Assembly (NCBI RefSeq): GCF_036241575.1
Contig: NZ_CP108455.1
Coordinates: 62,001-126,000, forward strand
Source: Streptomyces sp. NBC_01267
GTDB lineage: Bacteria; Actinomycetota; Actinomycetes; Streptomycetales; Streptomycetaceae
Direction of reading: 5' to 3'
DNA length: 64,000 nt
Shown: positions 1 through 11,381 of the stretch, piece after piece
How the letters are laid out: each line of letters begins with the position of its first letter
How positions within the stretch are numbered: position 1 is the first letter of the stretch
The notes under the pieces: model-generated
The model's database searches: none
Seen by the model: only the letters and a program-made list of their open reading frames with translations
What the model was told of the DNA's origin: nothing
Made by a program: the position numbers and the translations under genes

Positions 1-29
1 CACGTATGCCTCCTACTCGCCCGGTGTTT

Positions 30-497
30 TTATGCGTGCTCTTTGGAGAACTTGTTGTGCAAACCTGACATCTGAGGCAGGTTTGACATGTTGAGTAGAA
101 GTAGGTCTCCGTCCGCTTCCCCGTTCTTGAAGTGGTGCACTGACCAGGCTGGTATGAGCATGACGTCGCCCTCGCTCAATTCGACCGTTTCCTGGGTCTC
201 GTCAAATACGACGACCCCCGATCCGGACCGTATGAAATAGAGGTGCCACCAGGAGTGTGAGTGTGGGGTGGTGCTTTCGCCGGGACGGACGGCCTGTAAG
301 GTCATCGATGCGCCCGGGAAGATTTCGTGACTGCCTTCGGGCATGGCCAGGGTGAGCGTTCCGTATTCCGTGTGCTCGGCCACTTCGAGCTCTTTGGCTA
401 GGACCTCCCCCTGCCATACGACCGGGGCCGGCCTGTTCCGCACGTGGAGTTTTCGAAATTCAGGGTACGGAAACTGACTTCCGGTCTGCACCGGCAT
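30..497 (-). CDS. Cupin-domain protein
   Basis: A 155-residue single-domain cupin. Histidines at about 79, 81 and 85 (PHSHSWWH) and a second motif near 116-123 (PAWSVHHF) match the metal-binding positions of the fold, so it is probably a small metal-dependent enzyme or a binding protein. I chose the ATG at 497 because a strong GGGAGGA ribosome site lies just upstream; the frame stays open further upstream, but only through the preceding gene. Its first 38 nt overlap the end of the FAD/NAD(P)-binding gene, which suggests translational coupling and makes it the last gene of the kamA operon. The substrate cannot be read from the sequence. Confidence 0.85.
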   Translation of the reverse strand: MPVQTGSQFPYPEFRKLHVRNRPAPVVWQGEVLAKELEVAEHTEYGTLTLAMPEGSHEIFPGASMTLQAVRPGESTTPHSHSWWHLYFIRSGSGVVVFDETQETVELSEGDVMLIPAWSVHHFKNGEADGDLLLLNMSNLPQMSGLHNKFSKEHA

Positions 498-2328
498 TTT
501 CTTCCTCCCAGGTGACGTCGTGTCGGTGTCGGATGTGCGCGACCATGTCGCGCACGGTGGTGTCGGCATTGAGGGTGAACTGCGAGGCCATTCCCTGTCT
601 GGGCAGCGCGTGGGTGTAGAACTGCGGTCCCTCGACGAGGTATCCGAGCGCCCAGGCGGTGTACAGCGGCTCGCCATCCGACGTGATCGGTCGGCCCCGC
701 CCATCAATGTCGATGCCACCCGGCTTGAATGGGCCGTTCGCGTAGGGACGAATGAGGCCCCGTGCCAGGAGGTTCCCGATCAGCGGCGACCTGTCGCGCT
801 CGGGGTGGAACGCGTCGAGACGGGCGATGACCAGCGTGTCGGCGTAGCGGGTTTCCGGACCGTCGGGATAGTCGGTCCGGATCGCGAACCGTGCCACCTC
901 CCGGTCGAGGACGACCCGGCACCCTGGGCCGCCGGCCAGGTCCACTACCCCGGCCCGGAGCAGCGCGAGGAACTGGTGGTTGCGGTGCCGGGGCGGACCG
1001 AACGAGACCCGGTTCATGACCGGGACGTAGGTTGCGTTGAACTCCTGGTGGGACGTGGGGGTGAGCCGGGAGTATTCGACGGCCTGCCGCAGGCTCGCAC
1101 GGGTGTCGCGGATGACGTCGGTGGCGGCCTTCACGGGACTCGTTGTGTTGCCGAGTTCTGCGTGCTCCAGGTCGTGGGAAACATATTCGACGAAGAACTG
1201 CGTGAACGCGTCCTGGCTCGCGAATTCTCTGCCACGCAGCGGGTCGATGATGTCCTCGATCGCGCGCTGCTCGTCCGGGGTGAGGTCGTACTCCTCGGGG
1301 GGGACGGGGCGCTGTTCCTGCGCCGTGCGATAGGCGTATCCCATTTCCTTCAGCAGCAGTGGAAGGACTTCTCCGGCGAAGTCGAGTCTGGGGTCGTTGC
1401 GGCGGCAGGCCGCCTGCTCCTGGAGGCGCAGCACCGCTTCCTTGGTGAAGAACTGCGGCCGGTGCTGTCCCGTGACACCCTTCTGATTCACCCCCCGGGC
1501 ACTGAACGGCAGGCATTGGCGTGAGAACAGCCGGATATCGGGCTCGCGTCCGGAGGGGCGGTATTCCATGTCCTGGCCGGAACCGTGGAATTCACCGCCG
1601 CGGCCAACGGTGAGTTCGGAAATGACGTCGTGTGCGGTCAGCCCAAACCCCTGTACGGCGACGGACGATCCCGGGGCGATGTCCTGGAGCCGGTGGACCG
1701 GATAAGGGGTGGGACAGTACCTGAGCCGGGGGTTGCGGTCGGCATTCTCCCGGGCGAATTCCTCGTACAGGCGGTCCTCCTCAGTGGGGACCCGTTCGCA
1801 ATGCCCGGTTGCCAGGAAGATATAGTCGCTGGGAAGGACGAAACCCTTCGCCAGGTGGACTGCGAAGCGTCCACCGTCGCTCGTCTCGATGTCCACAGCC
1901 CGATCGCGATGGTGCACGACGCGGATCTGCGGTGGCAGCGACCGAACCGTCCGGTCGAAGACCCAGCTGAGGTAGGCACCGAGTACCTGCCGTGGCAGGT
2001 AGGTGTGTTCCCCCACGGCCTCACCCGCGCCCTGGCCCGTCGGGTAGAACGCGGCGTCGAATTCCCGGTAGCCGATGCCCGCCGCCCATTCGGTGAACGA
2101 GGGTCCCCGGCCGCCGGTGAACATCGTCACCTGGCTCGCAACGGTGTTGGTCAGTAGGTGCGCGGGCTGGCGCGCAGAGTGTGTTCCCTGGCCGCCGTCG
2201 CCCGGGTCGATGAGGTGCACGTCCAGCGAGCATCCCTCGGGCAACTGGTCAGCGAGTTCGGATATCCGCTGGAGGATGCTCAAGCCACGTGGCCCCACGC
2301 CGATGATGGAAACCTGGAGCGCCGTCAT
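460..2328 (-). CDS. FAD/NAD(P)-binding protein (NAD_binding_9 type), paralogue 1
   Basis: A 622-residue soluble flavoprotein-like protein. The N-terminus carries a Rossmann dinucleotide-binding motif (IIGVGPRGLS, residues about 8-17), and a second GxG-type segment (VQGFGLTAHD) lies near the middle. This layout fits the NAD_binding_9 family, whose members occur in secondary metabolism but mostly lack an assigned reaction. Its ATG overlaps the stop of the hydrolase gene (ATGA), showing coupling. A paralogue of similar length with the same motifs is encoded divergently at 4900-6822, so the pathway may need two related oxidoreductases or a heteromer. Substrate unknown. Confidence 0.85.
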   Translation of the reverse strand: MTALQVSIIGVGPRGLSILQRISELADQLPEGCSLDVHLIDPGDGGQGTHSARQPAHLLTNTVASQVTMFTGGRGPSFTEWAAGIGYREFDAAFYPTGQGAGEAVGEHTYLPRQVLGAYLSWVFDRTVRSLPPQIRVVHHRDRAVDIETSDGGRFAVHLAKGFVLPSDYIFLATGHCERVPTEEDRLYEEFARENADRNPRLRYCPTPYPVHRLQDIAPGSSVAVQGFGLTAHDVISELTVGRGGEFHGSGQDMEYRPSGREPDIRLFSRQCLPFSARGVNQKGVTGQHRPQFFTKEAVLRLQEQAACRRNDPRLDFAGEVLPLLLKEMGYAYRTAQEQRPVPPEEYDLTPDEQRAIEDIIDPLRGREFASQDAFTQFFVEYVSHDLEHAELGNTTSPVKAATDVIRDTRASLRQAVEYSRLTPTSHQEFNATYVPVMNRVSFGPPRHRNHQFLALLRAGVVDLAGGPGCRVVLDREVARFAIRTDYPDGPETRYADTLVIARLDAFHPERDRSPLIGNLLARGLIRPYANGPFKPGGIDIDGRGRPITSDGEPLYTAWALGYLVEGPQFYTHALPRQGMASQFTLNADTTVRDMVAHIRHRHDVTWEEENAGADRKSVSVP

Positions 2329-3176
2329 CGCACGACTCCACTCGCCGCAGCAGCGACTGCCTTGCCCCCGAGGGCAGGTTCGTGCAGGCGCACCCAGTCG
2401 GGCGCCCCCTTGACCCGGGGAAACCGCTGCGCCACCTGGGGGTCGTGCCCCGGGATGATGTGGTCGTCTCCGTCTGCCAGGGCCTCGATCGTGTCGTAGC
2501 CCTCCATCATCGGCGTGAGCTGATCGAGGATGGGAAACGGACTGCGTAGGCGGATGTTGGCCCACAGGTGGGTCGCATCGCTGGCCAGCACGACCCAGCC
2601 GCGTGCGGTGCGGACCCGGACCACCTGGGTGCCCGGAGTGTGGCCCGGGACCGGATGCACTGTCACTCCAGGAAGGATCTCGGCCTCACCCCGGTACAGC
2701 ACCAACCGCTGCTCGAACAGCCCCTGGACGGCGGTCTGCACGTTGGTCAGCTCGAAGGGCTTGCGCACAATGTGGTGGCGCATGGCGGGGCCAGCGCAGA
2801 ACCGGAGCTCCTCCTCCTGCAGGTGGATGCGGGCAGCAGGGAAACGATTCAGGTTTCCTGCGTGGTCGTAGTGCATGTGCGTAATCACGACATCCGAGAC
2901 CTCATCGGCCGTGACACCGATGTCAGCCAGCGCTTCGACGGGGCAGCGGAACAGGGTCCGTCCCCGGCGCAGCGCCATCTCCTCGGGGAATCCGGTGTCC
3001 ACCAGCAGCAAGTGCCGATCGTTGCGGATCACCCAGAGGTAGAAGTCCATGGGCATGTCGGAGCCCGGGGTGAACTGGCCCTCATCGGTCAGAAAATTGT
3101 CCCGCGCGGGTCGGTCGGCGTGCGTGCCGAACCGGAGTGCGAGGACTTCGTACGTCGGCTGTGTGACTTCGCCCAT
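2325..3176 (-). CDS. Metallo-beta-lactamase-fold hydrolase, AHL-lactonase-like
   Basis: A 283-residue MBL-fold enzyme. It has the HxHxDH signature at about residues 100-105 (HMHYDH), a PGHTPGTQ motif, an SDATHLW segment and a terminal PGHDP, which together give a complete dinuclear metal site. The best family resemblance is to N-acyl-homoserine lactonase-like hydrolases, so a lactone or ester is the likely substrate. It sits between kamA and the flavoprotein gene in a tightly packed operon. ATG 3176 is used; a GTG at 3185 overlaps the kamA stop (GTGA) and is a real alternative. It could open a lactone intermediate or detoxify the product. Confidence 0.85.
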   Translation of the reverse strand: MGEVTQPTYEVLALRFGTHADRPARDNFLTDEGQFTPGSDMPMDFYLWVIRNDRHLLLVDTGFPEEMALRRGRTLFRCPVEALADIGVTADEVSDVVITHMHYDHAGNLNRFPAARIHLQEEELRFCAGPAMRHHIVRKPFELTNVQTAVQGLFEQRLVLYRGEAEILPGVTVHPVPGHTPGTQVVRVRTARGWVVLASDATHLWANIRLRSPFPILDQLTPMMEGYDTIEALADGDDHIIPGHDPQVAQRFPRVKGAPDWVRLHEPALGGKAVAAAASGVVR

Positions 3177-3181
3177 GTCTG

Positions 3182-4534
3182 TCACGCCCCCACGACGGCA
3201 AGCGGCTCTCCGAGAACGGAGCCTTCGACGCCGGACGGCTCGCTCTCGAAGAAGAAAGCACGTTCTCCGAAGGCTGGGACGAGCTGGTCGAACCAGGTGG
3301 CGGCGGGGTCGAACTTCGCGTAGAAGGGTTGTCGCACGAGGTGACCCTGACGCGCCTGCAGGAGTTGCAGGGCGAAGACTTTTTCGCCTCGGATCGTCGG
3401 CATACCGTCGATGAGCACCTTGCCCGGGAACGCGCTCATCGACGGCCCGCGCACAGTGCGGGACAGGCCGGAGACTGAACTGTAGGCCGTCTGGAAGATG
3501 TCGTAAGCCTTGGCCAGCGGAAGCTCGAAATAGGAGCGTGCGCCGGTATCGCGCTCGACGAACATGTAGTATGGGACGGCACCCAGCTTTACGCCTTGGG
3601 TCCACAGCTCGTGCCAGGCATTCGGGTCGTCATTGATGTGCCGCAGAACGGGGGACTGCATGCGGACGACTGCACCGGTCCCGTTGATGCGCCGCAGGGC
3701 GTTCTGCGCGACGGCAGGGCGTAGCTCGGCAGGATGGTTGTAGTGGCCCATCAGCGCGATGTGCTTTCCCGCTGCCACAAAGCGCTCGAACAGGCGCAGC
3801 AGGTCGTCGGCATCCACGTCGCTGACGAAGCGCTGCGGCCAGTAGCCCACGGCCTTGGTGCCGATCCTGATGTTCTGGACGTGGGCCAGTTCGGGCGACA
3901 GGAGCGGTTCGAGGTACCGCTCCAGAGTGGCCGTCCGCATGATCATAGGATCGCCGCCAGTGATCAGCACGTCGGTGACTTCGGGGTGCTGCTTGAGGTA
4001 GGCGGCCAACCCCGCCGCGTCCCGGGCTGCGAAGTGCAGGTCCTCCTCCCCGACAAACTGCGGCCATCGGAAGCAGAACGTGCAATAGGCGTGGCACGTC
4101 TGGCCGGCGCTCGGAAAGAAGAGAACGGTCTCCGCGTACTTGTGCTGGATTCCGGGGACGACTTCGCCCTCCAGCTCCGGCACGTTGTGTGTCTGCTGGC
4201 CGGCGGGGTGCGGATTCATGCGGGAACGGACCACGTGGATCTGCTTGGCCAGCTGCTGCTTGTCGCCCGACCGCAATAGGTCACGCAGGGTGGTGTAGTC
4301 GCCCGGGTCCAACATCGTCTGGTGCGGGAAGTTGAGACGGAACATCGGGTCGTCGGGTATGCGGTCCCAGTCTATGAGTTCTTCGAGTACGTATTGGTTA
4401 GTCTTGAACGGCAGAACGTGGGACACCACGTCGACCGCCTCACGGAGGTGCTGCGGAATGCGCTCCCACTGGGGTGCCCGTTTTATTGATGAGCGATTGT
4501 AGGGCTTGAATTTGGCAGGGCTGAGGGTGCTCAT
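3182..4534 (-). CDS. KamA-family radical SAM aminomutase
   Basis: A 450-residue radical SAM enzyme related to lysine 2,3-aminomutase. The [4Fe-4S]/SAM cysteines are C147, C151 and C154 (CHAYCTFC). The SAM-binding ITGGDP motif is at about 191-196, and a C-terminal AFPGK (K372) takes the place of the PLP lysine of the family's PGGGGK motif. The family moves an amino group from the alpha to the beta carbon. The segments that hold the two substrate-binding aspartates of lysine 2,3-aminomutase look different here (FVERDTG and VRGPSMSAFPGK), so lysine may not be the substrate. A GAGGAA ribosome site precedes ATG 4534. It is the first gene of a four-gene operon. Confidence 0.88.
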   Translation of the reverse strand: MSTLSPAKFKPYNRSSIKRAPQWERIPQHLREAVDVVSHVLPFKTNQYVLEELIDWDRIPDDPMFRLNFPHQTMLDPGDYTTLRDLLRSGDKQQLAKQIHVVRSRMNPHPAGQQTHNVPELEGEVVPGIQHKYAETVLFFPSAGQTCHAYCTFCFRWPQFVGEEDLHFAARDAAGLAAYLKQHPEVTDVLITGGDPMIMRTATLERYLEPLLSPELAHVQNIRIGTKAVGYWPQRFVSDVDADDLLRLFERFVAAGKHIALMGHYNHPAELRPAVAQNALRRINGTGAVVRMQSPVLRHINDDPNAWHELWTQGVKLGAVPYYMFVERDTGARSYFELPLAKAYDIFQTAYSSVSGLSRTVRGPSMSAFPGKVLIDGMPTIRGEKVFALQLLQARQGHLVRQPFYAKFDPAATWFDQLVPAFGERAFFFESEPSGVEGSVLGEPLAVVGA

Positions 4535-4899
4535 AGGGATTCCTCGTCTGCATTACGGAAATGGGCATCGACGACCGCGGCGAGGCAGCGGCAGAACAGG
4601 ATTGTCTGGCCGCTTGATGGGGTAGCGCAGATTGGCATGGAGACTCCCGCGCATTTCTGCCCCTCCATGCTCACAGGGCCCCGGGGGGCCTGTCTTGCGA
4701 GCTATCCCCACTCGTCTCACCAGAAAGCTAGCCAATGATTCAAGTCATGAGAAATAGATCGACCTGCCCACTTATTCGGTCCATGCATGAATGATTTCTA
4801 TGAGCTCCGTGAATGAATCACGTGTACACAGCATGAGTACCTTCTCTTCTGACTAAGATCGACGGCAGAGTGATCAAAACAGGCAGCGGGGGGCTTTCG
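4535..4899. promoter_or_regulatory. Divergent control region of the kamA and flavoprotein operons
   Basis: About 365 nt lie between the two divergent operons with no convincing gene. Part of it (about 4725-4860) is clearly richer in A+T than its surroundings and contains short repeated words such as AATGATT and palindromes such as CATGCATG. Both promoters should lie here. A TetR gene at 8208-8786 is the nearest candidate regulator. I could not assign -35/-10 boxes with confidence. Confidence 0.5.
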
Positions 4900-6822
4900 T
4901 TGAACAGTCAATTCACCGTCGGCATCGTGGGGATGGGGCCGCGCGGGCTCATCATGCTGGAGCGGCTGTGTGCCAACGCTGCGACAGACCTGGATCGTGA
5001 TCCCACGACCGTGCACGCCATCGACACGGGTCCGGCCGGGGCCGGACGAGTCTGGAGCCCAGATCAATCCATGCACCTGCTGATGAACACAGTCGCGGCC
5101 CAGATAACGATCTTTACTGACGTGAGCGTCTCGTGTGTCGGTCCGGTAGTGCCGGGCCCCAACCTGTACGAGTGGGCGACTCTGCTCACCACCATGGGTG
5201 CAGTCGCGGAATACCCGGACGACGTCCTGAAGCAGGCACGCGACTTGGGCCCGAACTCCTACCCGACGCGCGCCCTTTACGGGCACTACCTACGTTGGGC
5301 CTTCCAGCGCATCATCGAGACCGCGCCACCACACATAACCGTACGCGTCCACCGGGACCTCGCGGTCGAACTGGACGAGCGAGGCGAGAAGCAGATAGTG
5401 CATCTCGCTGGCGGCGACCACCTCGTGCTCGATGCTGTGGTCCTCGCCCAGGGGCATCTACCGACCGCGCTTTCTCCTGCCGGGGCGCCACGAAGCGGCG
5501 CCCGCCATATCGTGCCGGGCAACCCGGCGGACGTGGACCTAGACGCGATCGCCCCAGGGGAGTCTGTGGGCTTGCGCGGCCTCGGGCTCGCCTTCTTCGA
5601 CTACCTGACTCTGCTCACTCAAGGACGCGGCGGCGTGTTCGAGGAGCGTGCGGACGGGCGCATCGAGTATCGCGCCTCGGGGCGGGAGCCACGCCTGTTC
5701 GCAGGCTCCCGCCGCGGCGTCCCTTATCACGCACGCGGTGACAACCAGAAGGGCATGGGTGAACGACATCAGCCCGTCCTACTGACCACGCGGACCATTC
5801 GAACGCTGCGTGAACGCGCCGCATCGCGAGGCGACGTCTGCTTCCGCAAAGACGTGTGGCCGCTAATTGCCCGAGAGGTCGAACTCGTCTACTACCGGGC
5901 GCTGCTTCGCCGCCGTGGTGTAGCGACCGAGACGATAGCGGCCTTCCTGCAGAGCTACCTGCTGTCTCCTGCAGGGAGCCTGCTGGAGGAGCGACTGCTC
6001 CGGCGCCACAGTGTCGCGGAGCGCGACCGCTGGAACTGGCAGACTATCGAGACCCCCTACGACGAACACGCTGTGCGCGGGCCTGCGGAGTTCACACGCT
6101 GGCTCGTGACTCACCTTGAGCGCGACGCCGTTCTCGCACGCGGTGGCAATGTCGACGAGCCGGTTAAAGCCGCACTCGACGCCCTGCGTGACCTGCGCAA
6201 TGAGATCCGCCAGGTTGTCGACCATGGCGGTATAACCGGGCACTCTTACCGCGACGAACTGGCCGGTTGGTATTCCCCGTTCAACGCGGGCCTTTCTATC
6301 GGTCCGCCCAGAGGGCGCATCACGGAGATGGCCGCGCTCATTCGTGCCGGTGTCCTGGAGCCCGTGGGGCCGGGCATGCGTGTTACACCAGTGGCGGACT
6401 CCGGCGGCTTCCTCCTCTCGTCGTCCGTGGTGCCGGGGCCGCCTATCGCGGTCACCACCCTCATCGAGGCGCGCATCCAGGATTCGGACATCCGTGTGAC
6501 CGCTGATCCACTGCTGCGCCGACTCATTGACACCGGCCAAGCGGCCCCGTACCGCATCCCCAACCCGGACGGCAGCCACTACGAGACTGGAGGGCTCGCG
6601 GTGACGGAGCGGTCGAGCCATCTGCTGGACGCCCGCAGGCGGGCCCACCCCCAGCGATTCGCGCTCGGCGTCACCACGGAGGGCGTGCACTGGGCGACAG
6701 CTGCCGGCGTGCGGCCGGGCGTCGACTCTGTGACGCTGAGCGCCGCAGACGCGGTCGCCCGGGCGATGCTCGACCGTAGGGCGAACCGGTCCGCTAAGCG
6801 GGTAGAGACGAATGCCTCGTGA
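4900..6822 (+). CDS. FAD/NAD(P)-binding protein (NAD_binding_9 type), paralogue 2
   Basis: A 640-residue paralogue of the protein at 460-2328. It shares the N-terminal GIVGMGPRGL motif, a downstream LRGLGLAFFD segment, and a conserved block around ASGREP...ARGDNQKG, the counterpart of PSGREP...ARGVNQKG. I prefer the TTG at 4900, which follows a GGGGGG run at good spacing; a GTG at 4870 is also possible. It begins the plus-strand operon and overlaps the MFS gene by GTGA. Two such flavoproteins facing each other across one control region argue that both serve the same pathway. Reaction unknown. Confidence 0.85.
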   Translation: MNSQFTVGIVGMGPRGLIMLERLCANAATDLDRDPTTVHAIDTGPAGAGRVWSPDQSMHLLMNTVAAQITIFTDVSVSCVGPVVPGPNLYEWATLLTTMGAVAEYPDDVLKQARDLGPNSYPTRALYGHYLRWAFQRIIETAPPHITVRVHRDLAVELDERGEKQIVHLAGGDHLVLDAVVLAQGHLPTALSPAGAPRSGARHIVPGNPADVDLDAIAPGESVGLRGLGLAFFDYLTLLTQGRGGVFEERADGRIEYRASGREPRLFAGSRRGVPYHARGDNQKGMGERHQPVLLTTRTIRTLRERAASRGDVCFRKDVWPLIAREVELVYYRALLRRRGVATETIAAFLQSYLLSPAGSLLEERLLRRHSVAERDRWNWQTIETPYDEHAVRGPAEFTRWLVTHLERDAVLARGGNVDEPVKAALDALRDLRNEIRQVVDHGGITGHSYRDELAGWYSPFNAGLSIGPPRGRITEMAALIRAGVLEPVGPGMRVTPVADSGGFLLSSSVVPGPPIAVTTLIEARIQDSDIRVTADPLLRRLIDTGQAAPYRIPNPDGSHYETGGLAVTERSSHLLDARRRAHPQRFALGVTTEGVHWATAAGVRPGVDSVTLSAADAVARAMLDRRANRSAKRVETNAS

Positions 6823-8042
6823 GCACACTTGCCCGTGCCGACCAGCACAGTCCGCTCGGTCTGCCGAGCCGTGATCCCGCGGGCCTGTCCACGGCGGTGG
6901 GAGTCGCGGCGGTCACCGTCCTCACCTCGTTGCCGGTGTTCCTGCCCGGCGCGGCGAACGGCCTGATCTCCGCGGAACTCGGGTGGAGTTCTGCGCGGAT
7001 GGGGGCTGTTCTGGCCGTGTACTGGCTGGCGTCCTTGGCGGGTGCCGTTGCCAGCAAACGGACCGCGCTACCCACGGCGGTTGAACGCACGATGGCCTTT
7101 GCGTTGTGTGCCACCTGCCTCGGGCTGTTCTGTGCGGCGGTGGAACCGGTCGTGGGCCTGTGGGGCAGCTCGGCTGTCGGGGGCTTCACCTACGGTTACA
7201 CCCAACCGCACACAAACGCCCTGCTCATGCGGCGATGCGCGCCACGGTTGCGCGCGCTCGCCTTCGGCCTGAAGCAAGCGGCGGTGCCAGCCGCGACCCT
7301 GCTCGCCAGCATGGCTGTGCCGCTGCTCGCCGGTCCAGCCGGCTGGCGGGTGGTGTTCGCTGGCACGGCGCTGCTGTGCGGCCTGGGCGGTGGTCTTCTC
7401 GCACGGCATGCCATTCCCACCGGGCGGCCCCCAAAGACGGGGCGGGATTGTGGTGAACCGCTGAGCGGGGGTGCCTATCTGATGGCCGTCAGCTGCGCCG
7501 GCTTCTTCGGTGCGATGGTGGGTAACGGCCTAGGCGGCTTCCTGGTGCTTGCGCTGACGACACGGGGCGCCTCGCTGTCGGTCGCCTGTGCTGTGGCGAC
7601 TGCGGGTGCCGCGCTGAACATCGTGGTCCGCCTTGCGGCGGGCTGGATGGTCGGAAGGGCGCCTCGGATCGTGTGGGCGGCCCTAACAGTGCTGTTCGTG
7701 ACCGGTGCCGCAGGCACCCTGCTCCTGACGCACATGACACTCATGTTGAGTGCTATAGGGGCCGTGCTTGCGTACGGTGGCGGCTGGGGCTGGGCGGGGC
7801 TGCTGCACTACGTCATCGGCCTGCCCTACCCCGGCCAAGAGCAACGGGCCACGGCCTACAGCCAGATGGGGGTCTCTTTAGGAGCCGCGACCGGGCCAAT
7901 GGTGTGCGGCCTGCTGTTCACCCTGCGCCCGGACGCCGCCTGGTGGTTGCTGACGGCGGCCGGGGCGGCCGCCGCGGTCTGCATCCTCGTCGCCCGCAGG
8001 TGTGCCCCGACCCGCTCGGACGCTGTGGCACTCGACCGCTGA
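6819..8042 (+). CDS. MFS transporter (probable product exporter)
   Basis: A 407-residue integral membrane protein with about twelve hydrophobic segments and no large soluble domain, typical of the major facilitator superfamily. The GTG start overlaps the stop of the upstream flavoprotein (GTGA), so the two are coupled. By position it most likely exports, or confers self-resistance to, whatever the aminomutase operon makes. An importer role cannot be excluded from sequence alone. Confidence 0.85.
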   Translation: MSTLARADQHSPLGLPSRDPAGLSTAVGVAAVTVLTSLPVFLPGAANGLISAELGWSSARMGAVLAVYWLASLAGAVASKRTALPTAVERTMAFALCATCLGLFCAAVEPVVGLWGSSAVGGFTYGYTQPHTNALLMRRCAPRLRALAFGLKQAAVPAATLLASMAVPLLAGPAGWRVVFAGTALLCGLGGGLLARHAIPTGRPPKTGRDCGEPLSGGAYLMAVSCAGFFGAMVGNGLGGFLVLALTTRGASLSVACAVATAGAALNIVVRLAAGWMVGRAPRIVWAALTVLFVTGAAGTLLLTHMTLMLSAIGAVLAYGGGWGWAGLLHYVIGLPYPGQEQRATAYSQMGVSLGAATGPMVCGLLFTLRPDAAWWLLTAAGAAAAVCILVARRCAPTRSDAVALDR

Positions 8043-8207
8043 TTTCCAGTCGGCCGCACTTCCGCCGTGCGCAACCTGCCCCGTATATGGTGATAAGTCA
8101 CGTACAGGGCAGGGATGCGCCATAACTTGCTCGGCATCGCCAATCGCCCGCCGAACCCGGCACGGGTTTGACAGCAGCAGGCTCACTCGGGTGGTGGTGA
8201 CGGACCA

Positions 8208-8786
8208 TCAGGTCGAACCTGAGTCAATCTTGAGATTCGCCACGACCCGCCTGGCGCCGTCGATTGCCCGGCGAAATGCCGCAGGGTCCTGTTGAGCGCG
8301 AGCCAGAACGTACCCGCCCTGCACTGCCGCAATGATCAGTGAGGCCATCACATCCGGGTCGGTATCGGGCTTGAGCTCGCCACTTCGTACCCCGTCCGCG
8401 AGCACCGCCGACAGTCGTTGGCCGACCCAGATGAAAAAGTTTGCCGCGGGTGCACGTAGGTCATCGTCGGCGACAACGTCGTAGTCCTGAGTCAGGCGTC
8501 CCATGCGGCAGCCCGCCAGCGGGTCGCGTTCCAGGTCGAGGAAAGCATTGACGCGCGCGACGGCCGACTCCTCCACGGCCAGCGCCTCCTCGGCCCTGGA
8601 GCGGAGCTGGTCGCTCATGTGCATCATGGCCGCGACCGCGAGATCCGCCTTCCCGGAGAAGTGGTGATACATGCTCCCCTGTCCCGCGTGTGCGCGTTCA
8701 AGAATCATTGCCGGACTCGTGCCCGTGTATCCCCGCTCCCACAATAGGTCGGCTGTAGCTCGGGTTAGTGCCGCCTTCGTGTTCAT
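8208..8786 (-). CDS. TetR/AcrR-family transcriptional regulator
   Basis: A 192-residue regulator. The N-terminal TetR helix-turn-helix is clear (KAALTRATADLLWERGY, then a recognition region ending in SMYHHFSGKADL, residues about 4-46), followed by a variable all-helical ligand domain. It converges on the MFS gene, with about 165 nt between their ends. By location it is a candidate repressor of the exporter and aminomutase genes. The region just upstream of its ATG is relatively AT-rich and contains an imperfect inverted repeat around 8795-8812, which could be an autoregulatory site. Confidence 0.85.
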   Translation of the reverse strand: MNTKAALTRATADLLWERGYTGTSPAMILERAHAGQGSMYHHFSGKADLAVAAMMHMSDQLRSRAEEALAVEESAVARVNAFLDLERDPLAGCRMGRLTQDYDVVADDDLRAPAANFFIWVGQRLSAVLADGVRSGELKPDTDPDVMASLIIAAVQGGYVLARAQQDPAAFRRAIDGARRVVANLKIDSGST

Positions 8787-8995
8787 GGGATCAGTGTACC
8801 TACCACTCGTTACAACGGAAAGAGGAAGCGGCCCTGGTGCGACGAAGGTGGCCCGGCACCGCAGTGAATCGTCTCGGTGTTAGCTCTGCGCGGTTTTCGA
8901 GTCCGGGACGGGCGAGGTGCTGGTAGGCAGTGCAGTGGGGGTCATGGCTCTAGAGATCAAGGACATATGAGCGACAAGTGGAGGGCTTGGACACC

Positions 8996-9752
8996 ATGAC
9001 CGAGAACACTTCCCGCACCGCGGGCGACGAGGCCGACCGCGGTTCCGGCCCGGCTGATGGGGCTGGCGCGCCGGTCATCCTGAGCAACAAACCGGGCTCG
9101 TTCGCCTGGGGTGTCCTGGCCAAACGCCATCCGGCCATGATCCAGCAGGTACGAGACGCCTTCCCGTACGGTTGCCGACAACACGAGGCCCTCGATGCCC
9201 TGCTGGACGAGATCACCAACGGTGTCATCGAACAGCTCGCTCCTACGGAGCTCGATCACTGGCAGTGGTCAGGCTGGGGGCGGGATTACTTCGGGGGATC
9301 GTGGTTCGATGCCCCGTTCCTGTGGGCGGAAAGCTATTTCTACCGCAGGCTCCTCGGCGCCATCGAGTACTTCGGCACGGGCCCGTGGCGGGGAGTCGAC
9401 CCCTTCGCCCCCTTCACGCAGGCCGAACTGCGCAGCGCGGCGGCGGGCGAGGAGCTCAGGGACGCACTCGCCGACGTGCCGGCCGACGAGCGGTCCACGG
9501 CTGTGCTCCACGCCTCGCTCTGGGGCAACCGCGCTGACCTCGGCTTCCGCGTCACGGCGGGGGAGCCGACCCTCGGCGACGCTGATCCGGGCCTGGTCGC
9601 GGACGACAGCGTCGCGCTGTGGTCACTCCTGCCTCCCGGAGGGCTGAACACCGTCGCCATGGTGGCGGACAACGCGGGACGAGAGCTGATCCCGGACTTG
9701 ATCCTCATCGACCACCTACTTGAGTACCAGCACGCTGAACAGGTCGTACTCC
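8996..9752 (+). pseudogene. DUF89/ARMT1-type damage-control phosphatase, 3' truncated
   Basis: About 252 codons of a DUF89 (ARMT1-like) metal-dependent phosphatase. The diagnostic motifs are present: ASLWGNRADLG near residue 170, and DNAGRELIPDL with LIDHLL near the end. Members hydrolyse damaged phosphometabolites. The frame enters the left end of the ISL3 element exactly where the family would continue, and the remaining C-terminus is not found on the far side. ATG 8996 has a GGAGGG ribosome site; GTG 8978 is an alternative. The gene is therefore truncated, and activity is doubtful because the C-terminal part of the fold is lost. Confidence 0.8.
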
Positions 9753-11381
9753 GGGTCTGTCAAACGAGCGGCTCTGTCTCACATTCGGTGGTGACTCTGT
9801 GTGGCGAGGGTCGTTGATATCGATGTGATGGATGTCAACCAGCTTGTGCAGATGGTCTTTTCGGGGATATCTCCGCTGGTCATTGAGGATGTGGTCGACG
9901 AGGGCGAGCGGGTCGTGGTGAGGGCGCGGACTCCGAAGGAGACCGCGCCCTGCCCGGTGTGTGGGGCGTCGTCGGGGCGCGTTCACGGTTATCACTGGCG
10001 GACAGTGGCCGACGTACCGGTCGACGGCCGACGAGTGGTGGTCTGCGTACGGGTGCGGCGTCTGGTCTGTCCCACACGTGGCTGCCGTCACACCTTCCGT
10101 GAGCAGGTGCCCGGAGTGCTGGAGCGTTATCAGCGACGTACCACCCGTCTGACCGCGCTGGTCAAGGCGGTAGTCAAGGAGTTAGCGGGCCGGGCAGGGG
10201 CACGCGTGCTGGCGATACTCGCGGTAGGTCTGTCGCGCCACACGGCTCTGCGTGCCCTGTTGCGGATCCCGTTGCCCACGGGAGGGGTGCCCCGCGTGAT
10301 CGGCGTCGACGATTTCGCTCTGCGCCGGCGGCACCGCTATGCCACCGTGGTGATCGACGCCGAGACCCATGAGCGGATCGACGTGCTGCCTGGCTGCGCG
10401 AGCATCCGGGCGTCGAGGTCGTGTGCCGTGACGGCTCGGCGACCTACGCCGAGGCCATCCGCCGCGCTCTGCCCGATGCAGTGCAGGTCGGCGACCGCTG
10501 ACATTTGTGGCACAACCTGTGCGAAGCCGCCTCGAGCGAGATCAAGGCGCACAGCACCTGCTGGGCCACCGTGCTGGAGGCGCCCCTGTATGAGGGGCCC
10601 CGTGCACGGACCACCCTGGAACGCTGGCACCAGATCCACGACCTCCTCGACCAGGGCGTGGGCCTCCTCGAATGCGGCCGCCGTCTGCAACTGGCCCTGA
10701 ATACCGTCAAACGCTATGCCCGAGCCGACCGGCCCGAGCGGATGCTCCGCGTCCCGAAATACCGCGCCAGCCTCGTCGATCCCTACCGCGAGCACCTGCG
10801 CAAACGCCGGGCCGACGACCCCGCCGTCCCCGTCCAGCACCTCTTCAAAGAGATCAAGGCCCTTGGCTTCACGGGCTGCCTCAACCTCCTGCACAAGCAA
10901 CCAAGGCCGCGCGGACGCCGACCGCAGCCATATCTCCGCACGCAGACTCGCCCGGATGCTCCTCACCAGGCCCGACAACCTCAAGGCCGAGCACCACGAT
11001 CTCCTGGCCCGGCTCACCGCCGCCTGCCCCGAGTCGACCCAACTGGCAGCCCACATCGAGACCTTCGCCCCACTTCTGAAGCCTCAGCCAGAAAACGCCG
11101 ACACACTCGACCAATGGGTCGCCCAGGTCCGCGCGGCCGATCTGCCGTATCTGCACGCCTTCACCCGCGGTCTCGAGCGAGACCGCGACGCTGTGATCGC
11201 CGCGTTCACACGCCCGTACAGCAACGGCCCGACCGAGGGCGTCAACACCAAGACCAAGCGGATTGCCCGCCAGATGCACGGACGAGCAGGCTTCACCCTC
11301 CTTCGCCACCGCATCCTCCTCGGATAACGCCACACAGAGTCACCACCGAATGTGAGACAGAGCCGAACGATTTACAGACCC
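9753..11381 (+). mobile_element. ISL3-family insertion sequence, decayed
   Basis: A 1.63-kb element bounded by inverted repeats. The inner 37 nt are a perfect inverted repeat (9770-9806 against 11328-11364). The similarity continues outward, with mismatches, to GGGTCTGT at 9753 and ACAGACCC at 11374-11381. The same GGGTCTGT...GGCTCTGTCTCA end occurs again at 63867, which supports these boundaries. No clean 8-bp target duplication is seen, so the element may have been rearranged after insertion. Confidence 0.8.
9801..11326 (+). pseudogene. ISL3-family transposase, multiply disrupted
   Basis: An ISL3 transposase with an N-terminal zinc-binding region (CPVCGASSG...[10 protein letters not shown]), followed by a DDE domain starting at GVDDFALRR. 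The frame is broken at least three times: a deletion/frameshift near 10390, a TGA in place of the tryptophan of the DRWHLWHNL motif near 10501, and another frameshift near 10910. The C-terminal stretch (TEGVNTKTKRIARQMHGRAG) is well preserved. It is not expected to be active. Confidence 0.85.

Follow-up and report, generated by a model that had tools for sequence, protein, structure and literature searches.

What does a cluster make in which a KamA-type radical SAM aminomutase stands beside two related flavoproteins, an MBL-fold hydrolase, a cupin and a transporter? The question is raised by positions 30..8786 of our window, the whole 64,000-nucleotide stretch of Streptomyces sp. NBC_01267 DNA that was analysed. 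A sequence-only reading had seen here an unassigned biosynthetic-type locus of two divergent operons lacking NRPS and PKS genes, and all seven genes that it named are indeed open frames in the arrangement it gave: KamA, the MBL hydrolase, one flavoprotein (FAD2) and a cupin (cupin1) form one tightly packed operon, and the other flavoprotein (FAD1) and an MFS gene form a second, divergent from the first. No NRPS/PKS adenylation, ketosynthase or carrier domain was found in the seven window genes or in the scanned flanks (VOC, second cupin, LysR, DHA2). Genes were called from ORF length, third-position GC and homology, an approach that small or atypical genes can escape, and the features are as follows.

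1..3, minus strand: first codon of a VOC/glyoxalase-like gene (Pfam Glyoxalase_4), the remainder left of the window at L004:15602-16003
30..497, minus strand: cupin1, 155 aa, Cupin_2, with HxHxxxH and a fourth His; relative of gentisate/5-nitrosalicylate dioxygenases
460..2328, minus strand: FAD2, 622 aa, NAD_binding_9 flavoprotein (PF13454) of the aspartate N-hydroxylase family (8CP2 match)
2325..3176, minus strand: MBL-fold hydrolase, 283 aa, lactonase-like (Lactamase_B)
3182..4534, minus strand: KamA-type radical SAM, PLP aminomutase, 450 aa (TIGR00238, below cut-off; PDB 2A5H)
4535..4869, no strand: putative divergent promoter region, intergenic from KamA start to FAD1 start
4870..6822, plus strand: FAD1, 650 aa (or 640 aa from TTG 4900), predicted L-aspartate N-hydroxylase (8CP2 match)
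6819..8042, plus strand: MFS transporter (MFS_1), presumably an exporter, its start overlapping the FAD1 stop
8208..8786, minus strand: TetR-family regulator, closest to an NCBIfam ScbR-type model at a score below cut-off

The longest cupin1 frame opens at 719, but translation probably begins at ATG 497, which follows a Shine-Dalgarno-like stretch; FAD2 likely starts at ATG 2328, overlapping the MBL stop. The core of the locus is as the earlier reading described it, but its boundaries and unity are not: the two operons prove separable, and the window edge cuts the cluster, with the VOC gene, a DHA2-type MFS, a second cupin and a LysR regulator lying directly to the left (L004). These left-side genes are conserved with the remaining cluster genes in L005, L006, L007, L099, L100 and L104, of which L007 and L100 have identical coordinates and were treated as one genome. 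A TetR relative (77-79% identity) is present in L005, L099 and L104 and was not found in L006 or L007/L100.

Conservation shows that the core genes form a unit. Of 295 genomes from the genus to which the window belongs, seven carry FAD2 (E<=1e-100), precisely the seven whose KamA is 71% or more identical, and in 7/7 the two genes lie on the same strand, one gene's length (the MBL gene) apart, so that across these 295 genomes their association is more than chance. The KamA-MBL-FAD2 order recurs in Burkholderiales, Pantoea/Rahnella and Billgrantia; the gene set is common to Streptomyces and distant soil and plant bacteria, and its genes are real and belong together. Among the best 80 of 584 KamA relatives, counts that are biased toward close relatives by that choice, 20 loci bear FAD2, 18 of them ordered KamA>MBL>FAD2 and the other two KamA>FAD2; the remaining 60, L084 included, carry a same-subfamily KamA and no FAD2 in the fetched stretch, some stretches being short. 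In 16 of 22 whole genomes with such a FAD2-less KamA locus, no FAD2 was found at E<=1e-40, and in the other six it stands elsewhere, at a locus that has neither KamA nor MBL. Two pairs of loci (L062/L066 and L069/L073) are near-identical, and L118 and L059 are two copies from a single genome. Of the co-occurrence of KamA with two NAD_binding_9 proteins that was earlier envisaged, the part with FAD2 recurs, and FAD1 was found in one of two Streptomyces clades. The earlier reading named rare co-occurrence outside this strain as what would refute it; the core genes instead co-occur in two phyla.

Around this core the accessory genes vary. The MBL gene is absent in L069/L073, and cupin1 is not universal, since 5 of 17 proteobacterial loci have a different cupin near KamA and two short ones show none. 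VOC is present in 11/11 other actinobacterial cassette loci; clade A has it directly beside cupin1, clade B one gene farther off. The Pantoea/Rahnella version adds an ATP-grasp protein and a second KamA; a single Pantoea ATP-grasp query found no match in the Streptomyces cassette loci. Some of these neighbours, namely the LysR regulators, a MaiA-like GST, a GFA protein and the gentisate-dioxygenase-like cupin, recall degradation operons, as does the class III aminotransferase downstream of the FAD2-less KamA in L074, and the cluster could in principle break down or detoxify an amino compound. We consider this very improbable: sporadic occurrence (7/295 in the genus, and 1/396 genomes sampled across the phylum, the one being the window's own), a location flanked by transposase and resolvase genes, 62-71 kb inward of the end of a contig of 7.86 Mb, the cost of N-oxygenation in O2 and NADPH, and the ATP-grasp and second KamA of the Pantoea/Rahnella version all fit biosynthesis better.

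The reading that we prefer, with a probability of roughly 0.6, is that the core operon (KamA-MBL-FAD2-cupin1, together with the VOC and MFS genes on its left) encodes synthesis and export of a small metabolite of the N-oxygenated beta-amino-acid type, no assembly line being involved. Its entry enzyme, KamA, matches lysine 2,3-aminomutase (PDB 2A5H) at E=1.5e-21 and falls far under the curated cut-offs (TIGR00238, 125.4 vs 199.2 bits; TIGR03820, 110.1 vs 525.4). The CxxxCxxC cysteines (Cys147/151/154), Arg156 and the PLP lysine, Lys372, are present in 97/97 aligned rows, window included; this count and the KamA tree omit L005, L006 and L073, which were assumed to be near-duplicates and left unchecked. 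KamA is the likely source of a beta-amino acid, in agreement with the earlier suggestion that it makes such a compound and that the product is probably a small modified amino acid.

Which amino acid KamA rearranges is less clear. The positions of Asp293 and Asp330 of lysine aminomutase, whose roles we take to bear on the substrate, hold Arg and Ser in the window KamA, and the Arg (Arg328) replaces Asp293 in 99/99 homologues. Conceivably KamA instead converts glutamate to beta-glutamate, from which FAD2 would form an N-oxidised 3-aminoglutarate, the MaiA-like GST or VOC acting on a cis-unsaturated dicarboxylate. The Arg substitution, a Pantoea GST above the maiA equivalog cut-off (176.4 vs 171.05) and the relationship of FAD2 to a dicarboxylate enzyme (8CP2) would suit this version, as would the aspartate aminotransferase of type Ic (NCBIfam) between regulator and KamA in L103 and its 75% identical homologue in the same place in L008. 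However, Arg328 is also found in 11/11 outgroup KamAs, two of which, in streptothricin-like clusters, would be expected to use lysine, and an acidic residue at FAD2 position 413 in Proteobacteria should keep a dicarboxylate away, the effect that N413E has in the aspartate enzyme. We dropped Arg328 as proof of an acidic substrate because the KamAs of streptothricin-like clusters share it, and we hold the glutamate version to be unlikely. KamA relatives do occur in two such clusters, named from their gene content, where beta-lysine is expected. The L103/L008 aminotransferase, for its part, counts against lysine and favours an acidic amino acid.

For the second enzyme of the proposed route, the earlier reading recognised both paralogous flavoproteins but missed that they belong to an amino-acid N-oxygenase family. 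FAD2 matches the aspartate N-hydroxylase 8CP2 over residues 8-598 (E=4.8e-71). In a comparison restricted to matches longer than 450 residues, from which L041 and L056 are missing, FAD2 proteins retain R13, N62, R266, R409, R412 and R577 in 34/34 rows and R276 in 16/34 (Gln in the window), and Asn413 is found in 0/34, 26 of these rows being KamA-linked. Position 413 is Glu or Asp in 14/14 proteobacterial cassette rows; the 12 actinobacterial rows have Ala (10), Gln (1) and Glu (1), the window protein having Ala. Judged by sequence, FAD2 is a separate subfamily within the aspartate N-hydroxylase superfamily, not classed as an aspartate N-hydroxylase, and is predicted to be a beta-amino-acid N-oxygenase. 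The N413E variant of the aspartate enzyme lost hydroxylation, according to PMC10404684, and proteobacterial FAD2s with Glu/Asp413 should therefore not be aspartate enzymes. An acid at this position fits a positively charged substrate, for example beta-lysine, an argument from charge that does not apply to the window protein with its Ala413.

Gene fusions and a replacement point in the same functional direction. FAD2 is naturally fused to the MBL protein in L080 and L083 and to cupin1 in P0162, and in Trinickia terrae (L084) an AurF N-oxygenase (PF11583, 142 bits; PDB AurF 3chh, E=5.7e-61) takes the place of FAD2 between KamA and MBL-cupin1-MFS-GST, a non-homologous replacement of FAD2. Among the 120 of 777 FAD2 matches listed, relatives are named "FAD/NAD(P)-binding protein", "YdhS", "hypothetical" and, once, urate hydroxylase; with such uninformative names and no assembly line, searches by name would miss the locus.

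The MBL protein keeps HxHxDH in 26/26 homologous loci, a count distinct from the MBL alignment, which comprises 18 of 25 loci plus the window. Its model (pLDDT 87) matches the AHL lactonase 8x78 best in Foldseek, at TM 0.80-0.85 and 22-23% identity. A quorum-quenching role was rejected on NCBIfam scores, the best being 79.9 bits against an AHL-lactonase cut-off of 360. Cupin1 finds gentisate dioxygenases by sequence in the PDB and has 8ch4 as its best Foldseek match (model pLDDT 77), with His79, 81, 85 and 121 invariant in 17/17 rows (the window and 16 loci out of 21 listed). Lactonase-like and dioxygenase-like roles for these two proteins, read from fold and motif, are speculative.

How does the divergent operon relate to this route? 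FAD1 residues 16-634 align to residues 4-596 of the 8CP2 chain at E=1.7e-170, the nine tested residues are identical to 8CP2 in 7/7 FAD1 rows (L007 and L100 being one genome), and the aspartate contacts R13, R276, N413, R416 and R577 are all present in 7/7. FAD1 is a predicted L-aspartate N-hydroxylase yielding nitrosuccinate, and the MFS gene is kept behind it in L005-L007, L099, L100 and L104. No CreD/FzmL-type lyase lies beside it, the genome's four PF00206 genes all being more than 600 kb away, and for want of a nearby lyase we rejected the classical nitrite pathway; nitrosuccinate without a partner lyase decarboxylates to 3-nitropropionate, as described in PMC10404684. The operons might accordingly be unrelated neighbours, FAD1-MFS making and exporting 3-nitropropionate and the KamA operon having its own product. 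Full retention of the tested aspartate-site residues and the lyase-less fate of nitrosuccinate favour this, as do a FAD2-like protein paired with an MFS on a Vibrio plasmid (L091) and the patchiness that makes the operons separable: FAD1-MFS is present in one of two Streptomyces clades, missing from clade B and not found in any of 17 proteobacterial loci compared. Nevertheless, FAD1 of at least 65% identity occurs in 4/295 genus genomes, each time divergent from a KamA cassette, which suggests shared use and makes mere adjacency somewhat doubtful.

The end product could instead contain an N-N bond, FAD1 supplying nitrite or nitrosuccinate and the cupin coupling its nitrogen to an N-hydroxylated amine. 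Such chemistry has parallels in the literature, where FzmM/CreE enzymes provide the nitrite for N-N bond formation (PMC11705231, PMC7347517), a MetRS/cupin fusion joins N6-hydroxylysine and glycine to a hydrazine inside cells (PMC13061610) and the negamycin cluster pairs beta-lysine formation with a KinJ-type nitrite enzyme (PMC12154649). The missing lyase and the absence of FAD1 from clade B and the proteobacterial loci speak against it, as do conserved cluster genes that include no ligase, MetRS or SidA; a hydrazine-synthetase-type cupin1 was rejected, the Rhodococcus hydrazine-type cupin being matched only over 71 residues at 31%. An N-N product is distinctly unlikely.

Returning to the N-oxygenated beta-amino acid, we propose that KamA, by analogy with its family, would shift an alpha-amino group to the beta carbon, most likely turning lysine into beta-lysine, with beta-glutamate from glutamate as the main alternative. 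FAD2, judging from its family, the fusions and the AurF replacement, would then use NADPH and O2 to oxidise one amino group of the KamA product to a hydroxylamine, oxime or nitro group. More speculatively, the MBL protein may open or close the isoxazolidin-5-one (five-membered N-O lactone) of an N-hydroxy-beta-amino acid, and the dioxygenase-like cupin may oxidise or rearrange the N-O group. The MFS protein would export the product, and VOC (Streptomyces) or GST (many Proteobacteria) may isomerise or quench a reactive intermediate; in one Streptomyces clade, FAD1-MFS would add chemistry from L-aspartate to nitrosuccinate or 3-nitropropionate. We found no literature description of a small exported compound from such a gene set. 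More tentatively, at somewhat less than even odds, FAD2 founds a new flavin N-oxygenase subfamily for a radical-SAM-made beta-amino acid, replaceable by AurF, and the cluster gives Actinobacteria and Proteobacteria alike a minimal way, free of assembly lines, to a new class of small exported molecules with a beta N-O function (nitro, oxime or isoxazolidin-5-one). If our reading is right, four enzymes with small substrates make up a pathway open to direct testing, the FzmM/CreE family gains a branch with a new substrate, and the same chemistry can be traced through bacterial genomes of two phyla.

The cluster resembles several known systems and departs from each. FAD1 shares all nine tested residues with the L-aspartate N-hydroxylases FzmM, CreE and that of Streptomyces sp. 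V2 (8CP2, 8CP5), and FAD2 matches them over nearly its full length with six residues always kept; unlike them, FAD2 never has Asn413 (Glu/Asp in proteobacterial cassettes, Ala in the window), and the window cluster has no CreD/FzmL-type lyase. KamA has the CxxxCxxC motif, the Arg two residues after it and the PLP lysine equally spaced as in lysine 2,3-aminomutase 2A5H, but it lies far below the NCBIfam cut-offs and differs at the Asp293/Asp330 positions. The KamAs of L109 and L110, clusters that we call streptothricin-like from their gene content, are 54-55% identical and carry the R328 signature, but have Ala or Val where the window KamA has Ser365, and neighbours that are A domains, a NodU-type carbamoyltransferase and a GntC-like PLP enzyme. 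The N-N clusters of negamycin, fosfazinomycin and kinamycin are similar in using an FzmM-type enzyme, or in combining nitrite chemistry with the making of beta-lysine, whereas the conserved genes here include neither lyase nor amide-forming ligase. The MBL protein has the fold and metal motif of AHL lactonases and 4-pyridoxolactonase, but is only about 22% identical to the best-matching structure, and its scores fall well short of the cut-offs set for the lactonase models that it matched. Finally, AurF p-aminobenzoate N-oxygenase is a diiron enzyme unrelated to FAD2, and the L084 protein reaches 230 bits where the cut-off of the NCBIfam AurF model is 620, yet it sits in FAD2's own slot in the operon.

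The gene cluster at the left edge of the window encodes a conserved, assembly-line-free and apparently undescribed pathway, and its best-supported logic is that the radical SAM aminomutase KamA would make a beta-amino acid that is then N-oxygenated. The window covers bases 62,001-126,000 of contig 1 (7.86 Mb, in a genome of 8.07 Mb whose closest named loci come from Streptomyces and Kitasatospora), and the cluster is laid out as follows:

4534-3182, minus strand: KamA, radical SAM aminomutase
3176-2325, minus strand: MBL, lactonase-like metallo-hydrolase
2328-460, minus strand: FAD2, NAD_binding_9 flavoprotein
497-30, minus strand: cupin1, dioxygenase-like cupin
4870-6822, plus strand: FAD1, NAD_binding_9 flavoprotein
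6819-8042, plus strand: MFS gene, overlapping FAD1
8786-8208, minus strand: TetR gene, after the FAD1-MFS pair
Left of the window, in the flanking stretch L004: VOC gene, DHA2-type MFS gene, second cupin gene (cupin2), LysR gene

Neighboring genes from KamA to cupin1 overlap or lie a few bases apart. Cupin2 scores 137.7 against the (R)-mandelonitrile lyase model, below its cut-off of 140. Left of the cluster, a Mutator-family transposase (L004:6591-7709) and a serine resolvase (L004:10357-11313) are consistent with a mobile setting. At window positions 8978-11333, an ARMT1-like damage-control phosphatase gene is interrupted at the start of an ISL3-type transposase region, the transposase itself being seemingly split over more than one frame.

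Within the genus, FAD2 (E ≤ 1e-100) and KamA (at least 71% identity) are found in the same seven of 295 genomes, on the same strand and one gene's length apart in all seven, and KamA relatives of 42-58% identity are found in 48 further genomes of this set. One group of loci, clade A (the window, L005-L007, L099/L100 and L104), carries KamA, MBL, FAD2, cupin1, VOC, DHA2, cupin2 and LysR genes plus the divergent FAD1-MFS pair; a TetR relative is present in the window, L005, L099 and L104, and a search for one in L006 and L007/L100 found none. Near its right end, where a short contig stops, L104 carries DHA2-cupin2-LysR in two tandem copies, possibly an assembly artefact. Clade B (L008, L009, L101-L103) combines a LuxR-like gene with KamA, MBL, FAD2, cupin1, MFS and VOC genes. 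The sole match among 396 genomes sampled from the phylum (E ≤ 1e-120) was the window's own genome; because known carriers, among them the Kitasatospora of L008, fell outside this sample, we consider the cassette rare rather than absent in the phylum. Among the best 80 of 584 KamA relatives in the genome collection, 20 loci carry FAD2, 18 in the order KamA-MBL-FAD2 and two (L069 and L073) as KamA-FAD2, and these come from Streptomyces, Kitasatospora, Burkholderiales (including Ramlibacter, Comamonas and Acidovorax), Rahnella, Pantoea, Billgrantia and one unplaced gammaproteobacterium.

By sequence, both flavoproteins match the structures 8CP2/8CP5, which PMC10404684 identifies as L-aspartate N-hydroxylase. 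At nine residue positions named in that paper, FAD1 equals 8CP2 throughout (7/7 rows). FAD2 retains R13, N62, R266, R409, R412 and R577 in 34/34 rows, R276 in 16 and R416 in 28, and never N413, which is replaced by Ala (16), Glu (14), Asp (3) or Gln (1). Among the 26 rows linked to KamA, the proteobacterial ones have Glu (13) or Asp (1) at this position and the actinobacterial ones Ala (10), Gln (1) or Glu (1). The text of PMC10404684 reports that N413E abolishes aspartate hydroxylation while NADPH oxidation is kept, although its Table 2 gives this row as N413A. FAD2 and FAD1 also differ at 41 positions that are fixed in FAD1 (7 sequences) and reach a conservation of 90% or more in FAD2 (23 sequences). 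FAD1-like enzymes are common in the genus (144/295 genomes at E ≤ 1e-150); the type of at least 65% identity occurs in only four, all with the cassette. A third NAD_binding_9 protein in the window's own genome (L002, G000:C1:1447217-1447699; 34% to FAD1) lacks most of the aspartate-site residues.

Links among the cassette proteins come from natural MBL-FAD2 fusions (L080, L083) and a FAD2-cupin1 fusion (P0162). In Trinickia terrae (L084), an Ldh_2 protein, a class IV aminotransferase, an AurF N-oxygenase and, in our reading, a putative TauD-type dioxygenase-like segment lie between KamA and MBL-cupin1-MFS-GST, and a search of this genome at E ≤ 1e-40 found no FAD2. The unrelated N-oxygenase AurF at FAD2's place is the strongest sign, from one genome, that the FAD2 step is an N-oxygenation.

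FAD2-like genes also occur outside the cassette. On the Vibrio crassostreae conjugative plasmid p1 (L091), one (32%, Asp at 413) forms a two-gene pair with a YbfB-type MFS gene, without KamA. On the Burkholderia stagnalis plasmid plas1 (L085), another (42%, Asp at 413) lies near putative adenylation-type and phytanoyl-type dioxygenase genes in a stretch without KamA. In Duganella/Rugamonas (L112-L117) such genes adjoin neither KamA nor MBL, and in L113 and L116 they follow a putative RND efflux gene; their products, a separate branch, have Gln for Arg416 in 6/6.

The proteobacterial cassettes vary in content. Across 17 loci (15 of the 20 FAD2-bearing KamA loci, L084, and L118, a second copy in the genome of L059), no VOC match was found; GST is present in ten; cupin1 lies within the operon region in eight and on the opposite strand, some 8 kb off, in two; a different cupin occurs in five; and no cupin was found in two, both short stretches. 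The Pantoea/Rahnella version adds a second KamA, an ATP-grasp protein, a 2-hydroxyacid dehydrogenase and, as we read it, a putative flippase-like gene. The enlarged clusters of L062 (Rahnella) and L066 (Pantoea), with the second KamA and ATP-grasp genes, are near-identical (95-98%) in the two genera, which suggests that transfer was recent and that the product resembles a peptide.

KamA conserves Cys147/151/154, Arg156 and Lys372 in 97/97 aligned rows and Arg328 in 99/99 homologues; these positions were aligned with residues of lysine aminomutase. The window's genome has one KamA-family match. In the KamA tree, actinobacterial and proteobacterial cassettes fall into separate clades (0.99 for both); L084 branches close to the base on the proteobacterial side, and some inner supports are poor (0.28). 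Two outgroup KamAs sit beside A domains, a NodU-type carbamoyltransferase and a GntC/VioD-like PLP enzyme, a gene content that we read as that of streptothricin-like clusters and that suggests that the wider family acts on lysine. This kinship, with Glu/Asp413 of proteobacterial FAD2, would favor beta-lysine as the intermediate; an aspartate aminotransferase occurs in L103/L008, and it and the MaiA-like GST would instead favor beta-glutamate.

FAD2 is missing from the fetched stretch, in some cases only 3-6 kb, at 60 of these best 80 KamA loci, L084 included; neighbors there include MFS, ferredoxin (L010) and class III aminotransferase (L074) genes. Whole-genome searches of 22 such genomes found no FAD2 in 16 (E ≤ 1e-40), and the other six have it elsewhere, without adjoining KamA or MBL. 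The KamA subfamily is therefore active in another setting too. On the Mycetohabitans rhizoxinica megaplasmid (L086), a KamA of the window's subfamily (~67%) directly adjoins a giant NRPS/PKS gene, whose A-domain code might disclose the KamA product. On Rhodococcus sp. DK176 plasmid pDK3 (L089), KamA accompanies a cupin, a MupA-type luciferase monooxygenase, a SidA-type hydroxylase, and class I tRNA ligase-like and ATP-grasp genes; the set resembles a hydrazine-type cluster and could couple hydrazinoacetate to beta-lysine in a negamycin-like manner.

Cupin1 has four invariant His residues (17/17 rows), and its predicted structure (pLDDT 77) is closest to 5-nitrosalicylate and gentisate/salicylate dioxygenases. 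MBL has the HxHxDH motif at 26/26 loci, and its predicted structure (pLDDT 87) is closest to AHL lactonases, methyl parathion hydrolase and 4-pyridoxolactonase. On chemical grounds, we expect that ring closure of an N-hydroxy-beta-amino acid could give a five-membered isoxazolidin-5-one, a ring of the size found in homoserine lactones.

Among the open PMC papers listed in literature searches, and in passages of PMC10404684, PMC13061610, PMC11705231, PMC12154649, PMC7347517 and PMC12159101, we found KamA nowhere described together with an FzmM-type or AurF enzyme in a cluster of this kind. The closest precedent found there for beta-lysine combined with nitrite chemistry is negamycin (PMC12154649).
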